Assembly: GCA_002840165.1 (NCBI GenBank)
Contig: PGZN01000017.1
Location: 9,311-73,310, forward strand
Length of the DNA stretch: 64,000 nt
Direction: 5' to 3'
DNA from: Firmicutes bacterium HGW-Firmicutes-8
Lineage (GTDB): Bacteria > Bacillota > Thermincolia > Thermincolales > UBA2595
Positions 9,995 to 37,658 of the stretch are shown here, one piece after another. The stretch's first letter is position 1. Each line of letters begins with the position of its first letter. The translations under genes were made by a program, and so were the position numbers. The notes beneath the pieces are model-generated. The model was not told where the DNA came from. It saw nothing but the letters and a program-made list of their open reading frames with translations, and searched no databases.

Positions 9995-10442
9995 AAAACC
10001 ATTTCTGGGGAATCCGGCCGATGTAAGGGTTGGATAAGTCGCACTTCCGGACAAGGTCTTTGATATACCTGCCGACATTGGGGTACATACTGACAGTGTC
10101 AAGTTCATCCGCGTCTAACCAGACATAGCCTGCCGCTGTAGTGTGTTCCGGGTTGGTCTCAGGTAAACCGCTAATAATCCGGCCCCAAAAAACACAGTGT
10201 AAAGCGGACTTCTTTTTTTCGGCCAAAATTACTTCACCCATGAAGGCCAGCTTATCGACTCCTACGATTATATTTAACTCTTCCTGCAGTTCCCGGACGA
10301 GGGTCTGGGCCAGAGTTTCGCGGTCATCCGGATTTCCGCCGGGCAGGCCGTACACGTCCTGCCCGTTGTAATTATATTTCAGGAGCAGGATTTTATTGTC
10401 CTGGAGAATTATGATGGCTGGTCTGACCTTCATAGTTACCAT
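9993..10442 (-). CDS. NUDIX hydrolase
   Basis: 149 residues. Contains a Nudix box of the form G-x5-E-x7-R-E-x2-E-E (starting GNPDDRE, then RELQEEL), with Asn in place of the usual final Gly. Such enzymes cleave nucleoside diphosphates linked to another group; the substrate is not predictable here. The ATG has AGGAAAGG 5 nt upstream; a second ATG (MKVRP) three codons later is possible. It faces the conserved block in the opposite direction, which fits an inserted gene. Confidence 0.88.
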   Translation of the reverse strand: MVTMKVRPAIIILQDNKILLLKYNYNGQDVYGLPGGNPDDRETLAQTLVRELQEELNIIVGVDKLAFMGEVILAEKKKSALHCVFWGRIISGLPETNPEHTTAAGYVWLDADELDTVSMYPNVGRYIKDLVRKCDLSNPYIGRIPQKWF

Positions 10443-10541
10443 TAATTCCTTTCCTACAAGATATTTCGCCCAGTGTTTATGAATTATTCACCTGGCAGCG
10501 GTTAACAATAAGAATATATTTTATGGACAGGAGCGCCAGAA

Positions 10542-10925
10542 ATGAAATATAGAAAATTAAACCGCCTGCTTGATGATAAAATAATGGCTGGCATCATTTT
10601 AGGATGGCTCAGCAATATTCCCAAAATGATACTGGATACGATAATGTACAAACTCGGGTTTTCAAAATTTTTCTGCTGGCATGAAACAGCAGGAGTTATG
10701 ATTGCGCAACAGTGGTTAACCGGTGTCCATGGGGTTATCATCGGGGCTTTTATGGACTATTTCTTTGCGGGAACGCTGGGGGTAATCATGATATATTTTT
10801 TGTACTACTTTGGTAATAACAGGTATCTGATTTTAAAAGGGACAGCAATAAGTATCTTTGCTTGGGTATTCATGTGTATTATATTTAATCGATCAAAGGA
10901 TCAGCATGAATATCAAATTGACTGA
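10542..10925 (+). CDS. Small integral membrane protein, probably the N-terminal part of a split gene
   Basis: 127 residues of unknown family. Hydrophobic stretches near 15-35, 65-90 and 95-115 suggest three membrane segments, and HETAG and GVHG lie between them. GGACAGGAG precedes the ATG. The reading frame ends within a cytoplasmic-looking tail (NRSKDQHEYQID), while the next frame carries a further membrane segment, so one frameshift may divide an original protein of about 165 residues. Confidence 0.6.
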   Translation: MKYRKLNRLLDDKIMAGIILGWLSNIPKMILDTIMYKLGFSKFFCWHETAGVMIAQQWLTGVHGVIIGAFMDYFFAGTLGVIMIYFLYYFGNNRYLILKGTAISIFAWVFMCIIFNRSKDQHEYQID

Positions 10926-11046
10926 CCCCTATCATACTTACCAGTCCTTTATAGTGCATACCCTGTGGGGAATAGTGATGTCTTATCTGGCAGTCAAATA
11001 TGCCCTTTCAACGATATCGAAGGAGCTGCCGGAAAGACATAAATAA
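10906..11046 (+). CDS. Short membrane ORF overlapping the previous gene, possibly its frameshifted C-terminus
   Basis: 46 residues from ATG 10906, in the +1 frame relative to the preceding gene and overlapping it by 20 nt. It has one clear membrane helix (FIVHTLWGIVMSYLAVKYAL). AAAGGA lies 5 nt upstream of the ATG, so translational coupling as a separate peptide is also possible. I cannot decide between the two from one sequence. Confidence 0.4.
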   Translation: MNIKLTDPYHTYQSFIVHTLWGIVMSYLAVKYALSTISKELPERHK

Positions 11047-15903: not shown

Positions 15904-16150
15904 GAGACGAAATGATTGCGTAAAGGCTAAGAACGGGAAGAGTAACCGTAACCGGCCTTCCAGGGAAGGGGTGCCAAGACTGAGAGCACCTCTAAGGTTA
16001 AAACGGTGAAAAACACCCGGGAGCCGGTAGGCCGAACCGATTAGTAGGCCTTCCCGGACGGCGCCGTTAAGCCGTAGTTAAAGGGGGTCAGCCATCAGCT
16101 GGCTAAACAGGGTGGTACCGCGGGATAGTTTCTCTCGTCCCTGGCGATGA
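15904..16150 (+). promoter_or_regulatory. T-box riboswitch, histidine-specific
   Basis: Full-length leader of about 250 nt upstream of hisS. The T-box core ACAGGGTGGTACCGCG is at 16107-16122, followed by the antiterminator/terminator stem GGGATAG...CGTCCC. A CAC triplet at 15987-15989 within GAGCACCTC is the candidate specifier and codes for histidine, matching the downstream gene. Uncharged tRNA-His should promote read-through. The terminator T-run is not compact, so its exact end is uncertain. Confidence 0.9.
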
Positions 16151-19891: not shown

Positions 19892-20098
19892 ACAACAACA
19901 TAACAAAACAAACCCTACGATGCGCGTGACCAGCCGCCTAGTATTGAGCCAACACCAATACCTAGGTAGTCCTGACTCTAGCTGTGGCTTGTATGCCTCG
20001 ATATCTGAGGAAACATAAAGCAGTTGGGGGGACCCCCACCTGTTGAGATCAGGTTCAAGTTACAACGGCCTCACGGCATAGGTGGGGTATTTTGTTGT
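19892..20098 (+). ncRNA. ssrS: 6S RNA
   Basis: About 190-200 nt without an open frame. The 5' segment CCCTACGATGCGCGTGACC (from 19913) pairs with the 3' segment GGCCTCACGGCATAGGTGGGG-like strand (20068-20087), closing one long irregular rod. An internal hairpin GGGGGGACCCCC lies at about 20026-20037. A 6S RNA binds sigma-A RNA polymerase as a promoter mimic. The strongest support is position: in Bacillus, bsrA lies beside yrvM (tcdA) near aspS and rarA, and the same genes are here. A covariance search would confirm it. Confidence 0.75.
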
Positions 20099-28548: not shown

Positions 28549-28761
28549 ATGTCGCCGGTTCAATGTTTCGGGTGCGGTTTAGTGGCACAAGATGAGATTG
28601 GCGGAAAACGTTGTTTAGCGCTGAAAAGAATCGTCGGCAATAATGACCGGAATCAATATTGGTCTTGTTACTATTATCTGCCGGTAATCGTGGAAGACAA
28701 ACCGCTGACTGCCTTTGAGCATTTGTTACTTAAACAAGCCGAAATCGACCGCAAAAAGTGA
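28549..28761 (+). CDS. Small cysteine-containing protein, unknown function
   Basis: 70 residues. Cysteines at QCFGCG, KRCLALK and WSCYYY; the C-terminus reads PLTAFEHLLLKQAE. It shares this layout with the protein at 32450 (PLTPQQHLLMSEQE), so the two look like paralogues flanking the desulfurase/suf segment. The cysteine spacing suggests metal or Fe-S binding. GGAGGG upstream. Function not known. Confidence 0.65.
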   Translation: MSPVQCFGCGLVAQDEIGGKRCLALKRIVGNNDRNQYWSCYYYLPVIVEDKPLTAFEHLLLKQAEIDRKK

Positions 28762-32266: not shown

Positions 32267-32437
32267 ATGGCTGCTGTTGTAGATGAAGCGAAATGTAATG
32301 GTTGCGGGTCGTGTGCCGAGGTATGCCCGGTAGGGGCGATTACCGTAAATGACGTAGCTCATGTTGACCCTGAGATATGTGTAGACTGCGGCACCTGTGT
32401 TGATGAGTGTCCAAACGGCGCAATTTCTGTGGAGTAA
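32267..32437 (+). CDS. 2[4Fe-4S] ferredoxin
   Basis: 56 residues with two cluster motifs, CNGCGSCAEVCPVG and CVDCGTCVDECPNG. It is the classic small clostridial ferredoxin. AAAGGAGGGG precedes the ATG by 5 nt. It lies behind the suf genes, so it may be a client or an electron donor of that segment. Confidence 0.95.
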   Translation: MAAVVDEAKCNGCGSCAEVCPVGAITVNDVAHVDPEICVDCGTCVDECPNGAISVE

Positions 32438-32449
32438 TTACGTTGAGGA

Positions 32450-32698
32450 ATGTGCAAAAGGGAGGATGATTCAAATGGGGTAGACTGCATCGAGTGCGGT
32501 ATTGCCGGTGAGGAAAACGGTATCTGGAAATGTTACAAATATAATTGTACGATTGCAGAAGCGGCTAAAATACACAAAGATGCCTGCCCATATTTCATCA
32601 AGAGGATATTTGAAGACGGGGAACCTCTTACACCCCAGCAGCATCTTCTTATGAGCGAGCAGGAGCTTTCTTCCCGTCATATGAAAGGACCGGTATAA
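32450..32698 (+). CDS. Small cysteine-rich protein, unknown function
   Basis: 82 residues. Cysteines in CIECG, WKCYKYNC and DACPYF, then the C-terminal motif PLTPQQHLLMSEQE that resembles the protein at 28549. Probably binds a metal or cluster. The start at 32450 lies 12 nt after the ferredoxin stop. No family name known to me. Confidence 0.65.
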   Translation: MCKREDDSNGVDCIECGIAGEENGIWKCYKYNCTIAEAAKIHKDACPYFIKRIFEDGEPLTPQQHLLMSEQELSSRHMKGPV

Positions 32699-32716
32699 AT
32701 AACGAGGAGGTTTGCT

Positions 32717-33559
32717 ATGAAAAACGATAAAAACATAAAGGAAAACTTAAATGTCGAAATCACCTATTGTGTAGAGTGAGGTTTCTTTTCTTCAGCCTCC
32801 AGTTTGGCGGCTGCAATTAAAAACAAATTTGGGATTACTGCGAAACTGATAGAAGGGCATAATGGTATCTACGAGGTGGCTGTGAACGGTAATATGATTT
32901 ACTCAAATCAAGGCGCATGTAGTAAAAGACCGAAGGAAGACGAGATTTTTCAGGAGATCCAAAAACACACAACACCCCTTTCAGTAGAAGATTCTGATAC
33001 GGTATCATCTGATATCTTCGAACAGAGCAGGAGTTTAGACATAGAATTTATGTACCTTGACCTGAGCGTCTGCACATGGTGTCAGTCAACAGAGTCCAAC
33101 CTTGAAGAAGCTATTGCGGAAGTGGCGCTGGTTTTAAAGGCCACCGGCGTAAATGTGAATGTTAAGAAAATACACATTCAATCCGAGGAACAGGCCCGTG
33201 AATTGGGATTTATAAGTTCCCCTACAATTAGAATCAATGGACAGGATATTCAGTTGGATGTCAAAGAATCTTTATGTGATTCTTGCGGTGATTTGTGCGG
33301 AGACAATGTTGACTGCCGTATCTGGACCTACCAGGGCAAGGAATATACGGCTCCACCTAAGGGAATGATTATTGACGCGATATTGAGGGAAGTTTACGGT
33401 GGTTCGAAAAAGAGCGTGGAAACGAGTACTCCTTCGAGGGAAGTGCCAGAGAATCTAAGGAGATTTTTTACGGCTAAAAGCAAGAAGGAAGAAAATGAGA
33501 TTGTTAAAGTTGTGGATAGCTGCTGCAGTCCGTCTTCAAATGATCCTGGCTGCACATGA
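32717..33559 (+). CDS. SelW-like (Rdx) selenoprotein fused to DUF2703
   Basis: 280 residues if the UGA at 32777-32779 is selenocysteine (residue 21). The first 75 residues are an Rdx domain: ITYCVE-U-GFFSSASSLA gives the C-x-x-U redox motif of SelW, and IYEVAVNGNMIYSNQG is the typical C-terminal strand pair. Residues about 110-235 are DUF2703, with CTWCQST, SSPTIRINGQDI, ESLCDSCGDLCG and DCRIW. A Cys-rich tail follows (DSCCSPSSNDPGCT). A hairpin CAGCC...GGCTG at 32793-32813 is a bSECIS candidate. DUF2703 genes often sit in arsenic clusters. Strong GAGGAGG start at ATG 32717. Confidence 0.87.
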
Positions 33560-33572
33560 AAATAGTAAATTA

Positions 33573-33594
33573 CCCGCAGTTTGCGGGTTTTTTT
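33573..33594 (+). terminator. Intrinsic terminator after the SelW-DUF2703 gene
   Basis: CCCGCA-GTT-TGCGGG followed by seven T. It lies between two convergent genes. Confidence 0.9.
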
Positions 33595-33930
33595 ATGTTT
33601 CAATAATCTGTTTCATTACCATTTCTGCTACGGCACCCGTTAATTTAATACAGTGCTCAAGATGTTCAGGATTGCCGAATTCAAAATCTTTGATAAGCAC
33701 CCGGCAGCAGGTGCTGCCAAATTGCTTCTTGAAGTCATCATGCAGCTTTTTAGCAGCTTCAAACATGCCCGGAGTCTCAATCAACGGAGCTTTACGACCA
33801 TATTTTAATCCCAAGGCCATTACGCCTCCTGTCAATGCTCCGCATGTACAACCTGCCATGCCTATACCAACGGGAAAGCCTGAAGCCAGGCACACAGCTT
33901 CCTTAGGCAGAGGGTTGTTAATAAATGTCA
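33593..33930 (-). pseudogene. 5'-truncated C_GCAxxG_C_C family gene
   Basis: The remaining frame (100-112 codons) has GCTCGALTGG, STCCRVL and HLEHCIKLT, the hallmark C_GCAxxG_C_C pattern, but the N-terminal third with its Cys pair is missing, and an in-frame TAA lies just upstream of NNPLPKEA. A GTG start at 33895 is conceivable, so a shortened functional product is not excluded. A complete relative is at 45003. Confidence 0.7.
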
Positions 33931-34044: not shown

Positions 34045-34410
34045 ATGAAAAAAATTGCGGAATTTTACAAAGCATTAGGTGATGAGACCCGGCTAAAAAT
34101 TATTCAGATGCTTACCGAACAAGAGATGTGTGTTTGTGAAATAATAGATAGACTGAATATGTCTCAACCTGCCGTATCCCATCATCTCAAGATTCTTAGA
34201 CAGGCTGGGCTGGTAAAAGACAGCCGGGATGGCAAATGGATCTATTATTCGATTGATGTCGATGTGTTTAAAGACGTTTTTAAAGGAGAAAATACGACAA
34301 TAATTCAAAGTTACGCCGGACCCATAAAGAGAAAAATAGAAAACGTACAACCATCACGGATGAGGACTGATCCATCTTTGTGCGAGAAGCTTACAGGAAA
34401 ACAACGGTAA
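34045..34410 (+). CDS. arsR: ArsR family arsenic repressor
   Basis: 121 residues. EQEMCVCEIIDRLNMSQPAVSHHL carries the arsenite ligands CVC in the third helix of a classical ArsR. It probably binds AACATAT-N12-ATATGTT in front of its own gene and releases it upon As(III) binding. First gene of arsR-acr3-arsD-arsA-arsA-selenoprotein. Confidence 0.93.
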   Translation: MKKIAEFYKALGDETRLKIIQMLTEQEMCVCEIIDRLNMSQPAVSHHLKILRQAGLVKDSRDGKWIYYSIDVDVFKDVFKGENTTIIQSYAGPIKRKIENVQPSRMRTDPSLCEKLTGKQR

Positions 34411-34452
34411 GTTAAAAAAATGTAAGTTAAATATAAAAGGAGGTAATGTCAA

Positions 34453-35523
34453 GTGCAGGAAAAAGAAGCAAAATTATCTTTACTGGATAGGTTATTGACC
34501 CTATGGATTTTTCTGGCTATGGCCATTGGGGTGGGAGTAGGTTATGTTTTTCCAGGGACAGCTGACCTTCTAAATAGAATGTCTGTTGGGACCACATCTA
34601 TACCCATAGCGGCAGGCTTGATAATAATGATGTATCCGCCTTTGGCTAAGGTCAATTACCGTGAACTGGGCAAGGTATTTAAGAACACCAGAGTACTCGG
34701 GTTATCTTTAGTCCAAAACTGGATCATCGGACCTGTGCTTATGTTTGTCCTGGCTATCGTGTTTCTGCGTGGTTACCCCGAATACATGGTCGGTTTAATA
34801 TTAATCGGCTTAGCCAGGTGTATTGCCATGGTTATCGTGTGGAACAGCCTGGCTAAAGGTGACTCGGAATATGCTGCAGCTTTGGTGGCATTTAACTCAA
34901 TATTTCAGGTAATTTTTTATTCTGTTTATGCCTGGGTTTTTATTACCGTTCTTCCCGGGGTCTTTGGGCTGAAGGGGATGGAAGTTGATATTTCCATGGG
35001 TGAAGTAGCCAAGAGTGTCGGTATTTACCTGGGGATACCTTTTGCTGCTGGGATGCTGACCAGGTTGTTCCTGGAACCTGCGAAAGGTAAGGAGTGGTAT
35101 GAAAAGACCTTTGTGCCCAAGATAAGCCCCCTTGCTCTAATCGCCCTTTTGTTTACTATTATAGTCATGTTTGCTTATAAGGGCAGCAATATCGTCAAGC
35201 TGCCGATGGATGTTGTGCGGATTGCCATCCCGTTAATTATTTATTTTTTGGTCATGTTTACAGTATCATTTTTTATCAGCAAAAAGGCCGGGGTCAATTA
35301 TGCTCAAACCACCAGCCTGTCCTTTACGGCGGCCAGCAACAACTTTGAGCTGGCGATCGCTGTAGCGGTAGCAGTCTTTGGCATCAATTCCGGGCAGGCT
35401 TTTGCGGCGGTAATCGGTCCCCTGATTGAGGTACCGGTGATGATTGCTTTGGTTAATGTAGCCCTCAGTTGGGGCAGGAAGTACTTTGACAAAGAAGGCC
35501 ATTCGGTCCGTTCCGCAGGGTAG
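34453..35523 (+). CDS. acr3: Acr3-family arsenite efflux permease
   Basis: 356 residues, ten predicted membrane helices. [12 protein letters not shown] carries the conserved Cys that binds arsenite in Acr3, and the motif [18 protein letters not shown] is typical. Exports As(OH)3 using the membrane potential or, with ArsA, possibly ATP. GTG start with AAGGAGG upstream. Confidence 0.96.
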
Positions 35524-35566
35524 TACCGTATCTAAATTTGTCGATGGAAGAAGAAGGAGAATTGCA

Positions 35567-35881
35567 ATGAAAGTTGAATTTTTTGAGCCTCCGATGTGCT
35601 GCAGCACCGGTCTATGCGGCCCGGCTCCCGATAAGACCCTGGTTCAGTTAGGCCAGGACATAAATAAGCTCAAAGAAAGATTTCCCGGAATCATTATAGA
35701 ACGTTACATGATTACCCAGCAGCCATTGAAGTTTAGAGATAATGAAGAGGTCTACAAACTGGTTAAGGATAACAGCAAAAATATTCTGCCGATCACAGCA
35801 TTAAACGGCAAAGTGATAAAGACCCACAACTATCCCTCTTTGGAAGAAATAATTAAAGCAATCGAAGGTGAAAACAAATGA
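35567..35881 (+). CDS. arsD: ArsD arsenite metallochaperone
   Basis: 104 residues. Early EPPMCCSTGLCGP has the three As(III)-binding Cys (11, 12 and 17 here). It transfers arsenite to ArsA. The ATG at 35567 has AAGGAG upstream; the frame is open to 35486 but without a site. It overlaps arsA by 4 nt (ATGA). Confidence 0.96.
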   Translation: MKVEFFEPPMCCSTGLCGPAPDKTLVQLGQDINKLKERFPGIIIERYMITQQPLKFRDNEEVYKLVKDNSKNILPITALNGKVIKTHNYPSLEEIIKAIEGENK

Positions 35882-36759
35882 CCAAATTTATCTTTTTCTC
35901 CGGGAAGGGCGGTGTGGGCAAGACCTCCATGGCCTGCTCCACCGCAGTATATTATGCTTTGAAAGGTGAAAAAACCCTGATTGTGACAACCGACCCGGCA
36001 TCCAACCTTGCTGATGTTTTTGAACAGGAAATCGGGCATAAGGTTACCAAAATTGACGGGATTGAAAATCTCTGGGCCATGGAAATCAACCCGGATGTGG
36101 CAACGAGGGAATACAAGGAGAACGCCCTGGCCCCCATGCGGGACCTCTTTGACGAAGAAATGCTGAGAGTTGCCGAAGAACAGTTAAGTGGTCCATGCAC
36201 CGAGGAAATGGCCGCTTTTGATAAGTTCATAGATTTCATGGAAGACGATATGTACGAGGTCGTGGTGTTTGACACCGCCCCTACCGGCCATACCATCAGG
36301 CTTTTAGAACTGCCAGTGGACTGGAGCAAACATATCGAGGAAAGCTCCAAAGGGAGTGGACAAACCTGCATGGGACCGGTCCAGTTGATTCAGGAAAGCA
36401 AGCAGAAATATGATGACGCTATTGCCAAACTGAGAGATCCGGCGGTCACCGATTTTGTCTTTGTCCTGCACCCGGAGCAGACGTCCCTGGAGGAGACCAA
36501 ACGGTCTTCCGGTGAACTCGGGGGAATGGGTATCAAGACTACTCATCTCATTATTAATGGGCTAATCCCCGCAGAAGAAGCTGTAAACCCCTTCTTCAAG
36601 CAGAGGTATGAAATGCAGCAGAAACACCTGGCGGAAATCCGCGAAGCTTTTGCCGGAATACCGGCTAAGACCATGGAACTCTTTGACAATGAATTAAAGG
36701 GGCTGGACATGTTAAAAAGATGTGCGCAGAAACTATTTGATGGGGTGGATAACTTATGA
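35878..36759 (+). CDS. arsA: ArsA arsenite-stimulated ATPase, first copy
   Basis: 293 residues, a single ATPase domain. P-loop GKGGVGKTS, TTDPASNLADVF, and the DTAPTGHT switch motif. Classic ArsA is one chain with two such halves; here two separate genes overlap by 4 nt and may form a heterodimer. The Cys in GPCTEEM and others are candidate arsenite ligands. Confidence 0.95.
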   Translation: MTKFIFFSGKGGVGKTSMACSTAVYYALKGEKTLIVTTDPASNLADVFEQEIGHKVTKIDGIENLWAMEINPDVATREYKENALAPMRDLFDEEMLRVAEEQLSGPCTEEMAAFDKFIDFMEDDMYEVVVFDTAPTGHTIRLLELPVDWSKHIEESSKGSGQTCMGPVQLIQESKQKYDDAIAKLRDPAVTDFVFVLHPEQTSLEETKRSSGELGGMGIKTTHLIINGLIPAEEAVNPFFKQRYEMQQKHLAEIREAFAGIPAKTMELFDNELKGLDMLKRCAQKLFDGVDNL

Positions 36760-37658
36760 GTAAACTGGAAGGTCTTTTATATCCGAAACAGGGTCAAAGA
36801 AAAAATATTTTCATTTCCGGCAAAGGCGGCGTAGGCAAGACCTCAGTTGCTTGTATCACCGCAGTAAATTCGGCCAAGAAAGGGTTCAAAACACTGCTGA
36901 TGACCACAGACCCGGCGGCCCATATCGGCAGTGTACTGGATAAACCCGTTTCAGATACCATAACCAAAATCGATGGCATCGACAATCTGTATGCGGTCAA
37001 GATCGACCAGAAGAAGTGCACTGAAGAATATAAAAAGGGTATTCTAGACGATGCCAGAGCCAGGTTTGACCCGAACACAGTACAAGCTATGGAAGAAGAA
37101 CTAAACTCCCCCTGTACCGAAGAAATGGCGGCTTTCCAGAAATTCATCGAATATGCCGGCGGGGACGATTTTCAGGTAATCGTTTACGACACCGCACCCA
37201 CTGGGCACACTTTAAGACTTTTAGAACTGCCGATGGAATGGAGTAAGCAGATTCAGATGAAATCAGGGTTGTCAGTTGAAGCCAGCGAGGAGGACAAAAA
37301 TCAGAAGGAACGCTTTGACCGGGTTATTGAAATGATGAAGAACAAAGAGCTTACCACCTTCGGTTTTGTCATGTACCCGGAGAAGACACCGATTATTGAA
37401 GCCTACCGGGCTTCCGAGGAGCTTAAATCCCTTGGGATAGCGACCCAATTAGTGGTAGCCAACCTGGTCATCCCGGAAGAACAGTGCCAGACCCCGTTTT
37501 TTACCAACAGGAGAAATATGCAGTTAAAATACCTGGAGGAAATAAAGGAACGGTTCGGGGAAGCAGAAATTCTTCAGCTTCCCATGTACTCAGAGGAAAT
37601 CAAAGGCCTGGAGATGCTGTCTGCTATTGCGGGGAAATTATATGAGGGGAGTAATTGA
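36756..37658 (+). CDS. arsA: ArsA arsenite-stimulated ATPase, second copy
   Basis: 300 residues. P-loop GKGGVGKTS (about 24), TTDPAAHIGSVL and DTAPTGHT. It is a clear paralogue of the preceding ArsA and overlaps it by ATGA. SPCTEEM is shared by both copies. Together with ArsD it should drive or couple arsenite efflux through Acr3. Confidence 0.95.
   Translation: MSKLEGLLYPKQGQRKNIFISGKGGVGKTSVACITAVNSAKKGFKTLLMTTDPAAHIGSVLDKPVSDTITKIDGIDNLYAVKIDQKKCTEEYKKGILDDARARFDPNTVQAMEEELNSPCTEEMAAFQKFIEYAGGDDFQVIVYDTAPTGHTLRLLELPMEWSKQIQMKSGLSVEASEEDKNQKERFDRVIEMMKNKELTTFGFVMYPEKTPIIEAYRASEELKSLGIATQLVVANLVIPEEQCQTPFFTNRRNMQLKYLEEIKERFGEAEILQLPMYSEEIKGLEMLSAIAGKLYEGSN

Follow-up and report, generated by a model that had tools for sequence, protein, structure and literature searches.

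The known bacterial SelW-like proteins are, to our knowledge, all small single-domain proteins. They constitute a recognized prokaryotic selenoprotein family (PMC13188914, PMC1794560). DUF2703, an uncharacterised family, has been placed independently in the thioredoxin clan (PMC3091736), and in Rhodococcus aetherivorans BCP1 a DUF2703 gene of an ars cluster is induced by arsenate and encodes a proposed thioredoxin (PMC6514093). Hypothetical protein DF (NF049942; deep-Sep) is a selenoprotein predicted in Desulfosediminicola, with no Rdx domain reported there (PMC12013277).

The window analysed here, a stretch of 64,000 nucleotides from Firmicutes bacterium HGW-Firmicutes-8, contains a gene (32717-33559, + strand) that joins an Rdx (SelW) domain to DUF2703 in one frame, with a predicted selenocysteine (Sec) at codon 21. 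The two families are known ones, combined here in a new way; the literature searched, which did not extend to the Haft selenoprotein papers, yielded no account of a selenoprotein that fuses SelW to DUF2703.

Decoding of the in-frame TGA

A Shine-Dalgarno-like GAGGAGG (32704-32710, +) lies 5' of the ATG. Translation of 32717-33559 meets a sole internal TGA, at codon 21 (32777-32779, +), within the peptide Y-C-V-E-U-G. Residues 12-82 of the read-through protein (32750-32962, +) match the Rdx profile PF10262 of Pfam (43.7 bits against a cut-off of 22.6), and the NCBIfam profile TIGR02174 (CXXU_selWTH) also exceeds its threshold (35.6 against 34.2 bits), identifying a SelW-like thioredoxin-fold domain with the putative active site C18-V-E-U21. 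The match straddles the TGA; therefore, the Rdx domain requires read-through. The frame runs on, as the initial annotation had proposed, into DUF2703 (PF10865; residues 107-222; 33035-33382, +; 129.8 bits against 23.6), with its C187 cysteine cluster and a CC pair (C269-C270; 33521-33526, +) in a flexible tail.

The source genome encodes a tRNA-Sec (74 bits) with anticodon UCA, as well as SelA (637 bits), SelB (372 bits) and SelD (396 bits); selD adjoins selA and has an in-frame TGA of its own. Four genomes of the same class, including Thermincola ferriacetica MAGs and HGW-Firmicutes-14, carry the CVEU fusion as well, again with TGA as codon 21, and G328, a genome of another class, has an Rdx-DUF2703 fusion with CRVU. 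Synonymous divergence between lineages has mostly reached saturation, and is saturated or near-saturated for the four class relatives, while within the class the Rdx codons flanking the TGA on either side show pN/pS or dN/dS ratios of 0.14-0.29, indicating purifying selection. Thus, retention of the codon-21 TGA in four relatives despite synonymous saturation, together with this selection, is far beyond chance.

The fusion orthologue of genome G152 (L080, 9209-10159, - strand) has CGA (Arg) at the CxxU site, an intact SECIS-like hairpin and a tRNA-Sec in its genome. Recoding of this CGA as Sec was rejected because the tRNA-Sec carries the normal UCA anticodon, so the codon most likely specifies Arg; the Arg form is apparently either a recent Sec loss or a sequence error.

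The TGA is followed by the putative SECIS hairpin CAGCC-U-CCA-GUU-UGG-C-GGCUG (32793-32813, +; -10.9 kcal/mol), whose GUU loop presents its apical G 22 nt 3' of the TGA. The bacterial SECIS model used here comprises a loop G, a spacing of 16-37 nt, an MFE of -7.5 or below and an upper stem of 4-16 bp. Loop and spacing conform to the published bacterial rules (PMC13188914), but the upper stem consists of 3 bp, one U-C mismatch and 5 bp, whereas the model asks for at least 4 uninterrupted bp; the hairpins of G001 and G328 have uninterrupted stems. All 15 SelW-type genes compared (seven fusions and eight standalone SelW genes) have the apical G at this same 22-nt offset. Paired positions number 89 of 105, against 67.9 +/- 3.3 under synonymous codon resampling (maximum 80 in 5000 resamplings), and 71 of 84 in a non-redundant set, against 52.9 +/- 2.9. 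Covariation in the hairpin is 0.411, compared with 0.194 after shuffling, and no shuffle reached the observed value. In RNA folding downstream of the UGA, the check suggested at the outset, the simple MFE z-score of the post-TGA region is unremarkable (-0.2 to -1.2); the hairpin is visible only in the comparative and synonymous-codon tests. With Rdx scores above cut-offs across the TGA, the Sec machinery and the SECIS-like hairpin, the original reading of UGA codon 21 as part of the C-V-E-U of an Rdx domain stands, and comparison of the sequences supports decoding of this codon as Sec, aided by the SECIS hairpin 22 nt downstream.

The DUF2703 domain, its distribution and its arsenic gene neighbourhood

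An AlphaFold2 model of the fusion (pLDDT 84.8, pTM 0.59) has a flexible linker at residues 88-101. DSSP of the model and matches of residues 6-87 to SelW structures, with Z scores of 12-13 (SelW-like 2obk: Z 12.9 over 78 residues, 1.6 A), point to a SelW-like N-terminal domain, and residues 103-231 match thioredoxin-like folds at Z 7-8; DUF2703 alone reaches 8-8.7, a middling value. The DUF2703 part of the model has a CxxC (C119, C122; 33071-33082, +) at the start of the first helix, the thioredoxin active-site position, and an SPT before a strand. A second cysteine cluster, C187-x2-C190-x3-C194-x5-C200, lies at 33275-33316 (+). Across 25 aligned DUF2703 rows, C119, C122, C187, C190 and C200 are invariant, as is P169 of the SPT loop. 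By sequence and predicted structure, DUF2703 is a second thioredoxin-like unit: it has its own CxxC, an SPT loop of the cis-Pro type, a conserved cluster of three to four Cys and a flexible tail that bears Cys residues.

Among 398 genomes of the phylum, 68 have a strong DUF2703 match, and in seven of these (five of the class, G152 and G328) the protein includes Rdx. Six genomes besides the source thus share the fusion, so that DUF2703 relatives do not uniformly begin downstream of the UGA, the outcome named initially as contrary to the proposal, though Rdx is absent from 61 of the 68. The Cys (CxxC) homologues then sought were not found: the 398 genomes yielded no such version of the fusion, and the sole non-Sec orthologue has Arg. 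This agrees with the few Cys homologues of bacterial SelW-like proteins in Sec-using organisms (PMC1794560). Unlike the fusion, the standalone DUF2703 relatives examined have no Rdx or selenodomain; they begin with a Cys-rich tail or a ferredoxin domain, and one case has an ArsM C-terminus. In genome G115 (L084, from 4134 onward), a ferredoxin-like domain, DUF2703 and an arsenite methyltransferase (ArsM) share a single open frame. A single origin of the fusion is uncertain: the tree has long branches, and G328 and G152 call for several changes of label in it. Viral contigs contained no relative, and plasmids only two DUF2703 proteins, both without the Rdx part.

An ars operon (34045-37658, +) lies 3' of the fusion gene and encodes ArsR (34045), Acr3 (34453), ArsD (35486), ArsA (35878) and an ArsA-like protein (36756), the last assigned because its sequence resembles that of the ArsA encoded before it. 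Most fusions are located near arsenic genes: that of G002 adjoins ArsR-Acr3, that of G328 Acr3-ArsR-ArsP and that of G152 ArsR-ArsA-ArsD, while the G001 fusion lies inside an ArsP/Trx/ArsR/ArsE/ArsM cluster and G007 has a similar neighbourhood, with ArsM plus a second DUF2703 gene. In G004, tblastn recognised no ars gene in the 18 kb stretch searched. The claimed frequency of DUF2703 in arsenic clusters is borne out statistically: Acr3, ArsA, ArsD, ArsM or ArsP occurs in 12 of 20 regions (11-16 kb) around standalone DUF2703 genes and in 1 of 32 control regions, almost all of which come from those genomes (Fisher P = 6e-6, for loci that are not phylogenetically independent). Eight DUF2703 loci lack Acr3 and ArsA/D/M/P within 8 kb. 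Sigma-70-family factor genes adjoin some DUF2703 genes (L025, L029, L037).

The window fusion gene has its own terminator, lies 3' of a SUF-like cluster and is separated from the ars operon by a 486 bp gap. Upstream, and mostly tightly spaced, are SufS-, SufC- and SufBD-like genes and an 82-aa Cys-rich ORF, together with a small ferredoxin (32268-32438, +) that belongs to the same gene run and bears two CxxCxxCxxxC motifs. Small Cys-rich ORFs at 28549-28761 and 32450-32698, ending in ...PLTAFEHLLLKQAEI and PLTPQQHLLMSEQEL, flank the SUF-like cluster; they are similar to each other and have no Pfam or NCBIfam match. A fragment upstream of the G007 fusion (L040, 7228-7458) shares 89% identity over 44 aa with the beginning of the window cysteine desulfurase, hinting at an ancestral linkage of SUF-like cluster and fusion. 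Between the fusion terminator and the ars operon, on the opposite strand, is a C_GCAxxG_C_C gene (33593-33895, -) that represents a truncated remnant, since the profile match begins only at position 25 and no minus-strand frame supplies an N-terminus; an apparently intact relative occurs in the G152 ars cluster (L080, 4995-5465). Rfam models also place a T-box leader (15920-16145) and a 6S RNA (19909-20092) in the window.

A candidate second selenocysteine at the C-terminus

The TGA at 33557-33559 (+) is the annotated stop. As a correction to the initial frame end at 33559, the frame may continue to the TAG at 33563-33565 (+), because the terminal TGA may itself encode Sec (G-C-T-U-K-stop). 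In all five class fusions, a single codon, for Lys or Ser, separates this TGA from a TAG or TAA; next comes the conserved hairpin ACCCGCA-GTT-TGCGGGT, whose GUU loop lies about 19 nt after the terminal TGA (G002 is one base shorter and G004 has an altered first pair). This layout is seen at 33557-33588 in the window and in L037, L038, L039 and L040. The window hairpin (33572-33588, +) forms an intrinsic terminator with the T-run that follows it and is a candidate second SECIS, its apical G 19 nt 3' of the terminal TGA.

Of the 247 ORFs that end with TGA in about 1.3 Mb from three class genomes, 14 show the TGA-N-TAA/TAG layout, and its combination with a G-loop hairpin occurs there four times, three of them in fusion genes. 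The order TGA, one codon and stop is absent from all 12 of the other DUF2703 genes with a final TGA that were listed. A G002 paralogue without Rdx (L038, about 10160-10964, -) ends GSC-TGA-AAC-TGA and is followed by ATCCGTA-GTT-TACGGAT, with two compensatory C-G to T-A changes, an unchanged loop and no clear T-run. In the G152 fusion a Gly codon takes the position of the terminal TGA, the frame ends K-TAG with its length matching, and the hairpin is missing; the G328 fusion ends with TAA, without a 3' hairpin. The 3' hairpin as a repeated generic terminator was rejected: no second copy of its exact sequence turned up in 385 kb of that genome, and the other loci compared gave one occurrence of the relaxed stem. 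A comparison with other conserved terminators is weak because it includes only four non-fusion pairs.

Two Sec residues per protein, Sec21 and a penultimate Sec from the terminal TGA (C-T-U-K/S-stop, or C-U-S-stop in G002), are a tentative prediction, slightly less likely than not. Against it, the 3' hairpin in the fusions is an ordinary terminator as well, G004 has no Cys directly before the terminal TGA, the covariation comes from one paralogue, and one extra residue is beyond the reach of conservation tests. If this TGA encodes Sec, the protein would have a tail selenol where many DUF2703 relatives end in a Cys pair, resembling the C-terminal selenenylsulfide of thioredoxin reductase, and one short 3'-UTR hairpin would serve both Sec insertion and transcription termination. 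Ordinary gene calling would cut the protein at the internal TGA, and the 3' layout suggests that it might also end it two residues early at the C-terminus.

Possible function and relation to known systems

On balance we slightly favour a two-module selenol/dithiol oxidoreductase that serves arsenic detoxification, with Sec decoded at codon 21. The SelW-like N-terminal domain would supply a Cys-x-x-Sec redox pair, and an intramolecular selenol/dithiol relay would link the two domains. Arsenic may be handled by the cysteines of DUF2703, either as As(III) or MAs(III) thiolates or as disulfides formed after reduction of pentavalent arsenic; the Cys/Sec pair would re-reduce or unload these cysteines, and the neighbouring Acr3/ArsA-ArsD, ArsP or ArsM could then take the product for export or methylation. 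A conceivable electron donor is the small ferredoxin encoded upstream. Counting against an arsenic relay are the separate terminator and intergenic gap, the absence of a recognised ars gene in G004, the eight DUF2703 loci without Acr3 or ArsA/D/M/P within 8 kb and the fact that most DUF2703 proteins manage without a selenodomain; the literature searched has no report of arsenic binding or reduction by DUF2703.

The same cysteines could instead act as ligands rather than redox catalysts, in a metallochaperone or buffer that binds As(III) or methylarsenite tightly through As-S and As-Se bonds and passes it to ArsA/Acr3 or ArsP. As(III) is typically coordinated by three thiolates, and none of C187, C190 and C200 varies among the rows aligned; the CC pairs of the flexible tails and the neighbouring ArsD, ArsA and Acr3, with ArsD handing arsenic on as a metallochaperone, point the same way. 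DUF2703 is also fused to ArsD in other proteins, according to Pawlowski et al. (PMC3091736). Nevertheless, this role is unlikely for the fusion, which has no ArsD profile match in a window that already encodes ArsD, and which combines CxxU/CxxC with a cis-Pro, a classic oxidoreductase arrangement. Less probable still is a selenol-dependent enzyme that reduces disulfides generally, in proteins oxidised or stressed by arsenic, with no specificity for arsenic species and with an ars location that would reflect co-regulation only: SelW-like proteins are generic thioredoxin-fold redox proteins, and related genomes hold standalone Sec-containing SelW proteins, but the covalent partner DUF2703 is enriched at ars loci and the fusions outside the class, in G152 and G328, are likewise found there. 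That codon-21 UGA is a true stop, with translation of DUF2703 starting internally and Rdx reduced to a decaying remnant, would suit the absence of Rdx from most DUF2703 proteins and the Arg of G152; it is very hard to reconcile with purifying selection on the post-TGA Rdx codons, a conserved SECIS hairpin, complete Sec machinery, the same codon in five class genomes and an Arg form that also keeps the frame open.

As a selenol/dithiol oxidoreductase or otherwise, the fusion connects selenium biochemistry directly with arsenic detoxification genes in anaerobes and gives the DUF2703 family a testable partner activity. It shares the CxxU, fold and SECIS position of bacterial SelW-like selenoproteins (PF10262/TIGR02174), such as those of Desulfotomaculum reducens and Symbiobacterium, but differs from known members in that its Rdx domain is joined to DUF2703 and located in ars clusters. 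The Rhodococcus DUF2703 protein (PMC6514093) similarly places a CxxC thioredoxin-like domain beside ars genes. The DF profile (NF049942) aligns to residues 128-221 of the fusion, within DUF2703, at 58.6 bits, below its cut-off of 70. ArsD resembles the fusion in its thioredoxin fold, Cys-based arsenic handling and presence in the same operons, but it has no CxxU domain, and its profile (PF06953) does not match the fusion protein at E <= 0.5. The arsenite methyltransferase/AhpD (NF041537) and arsenite methyltransferase/DUF2284 (NF041536) selenoproteins provide a precedent for a Sec redox domain fused to an arsenic protein; although their domains are unrelated to those of the fusion, its functional neighbourhood is the same as for other arsenic-linked selenoproteins.
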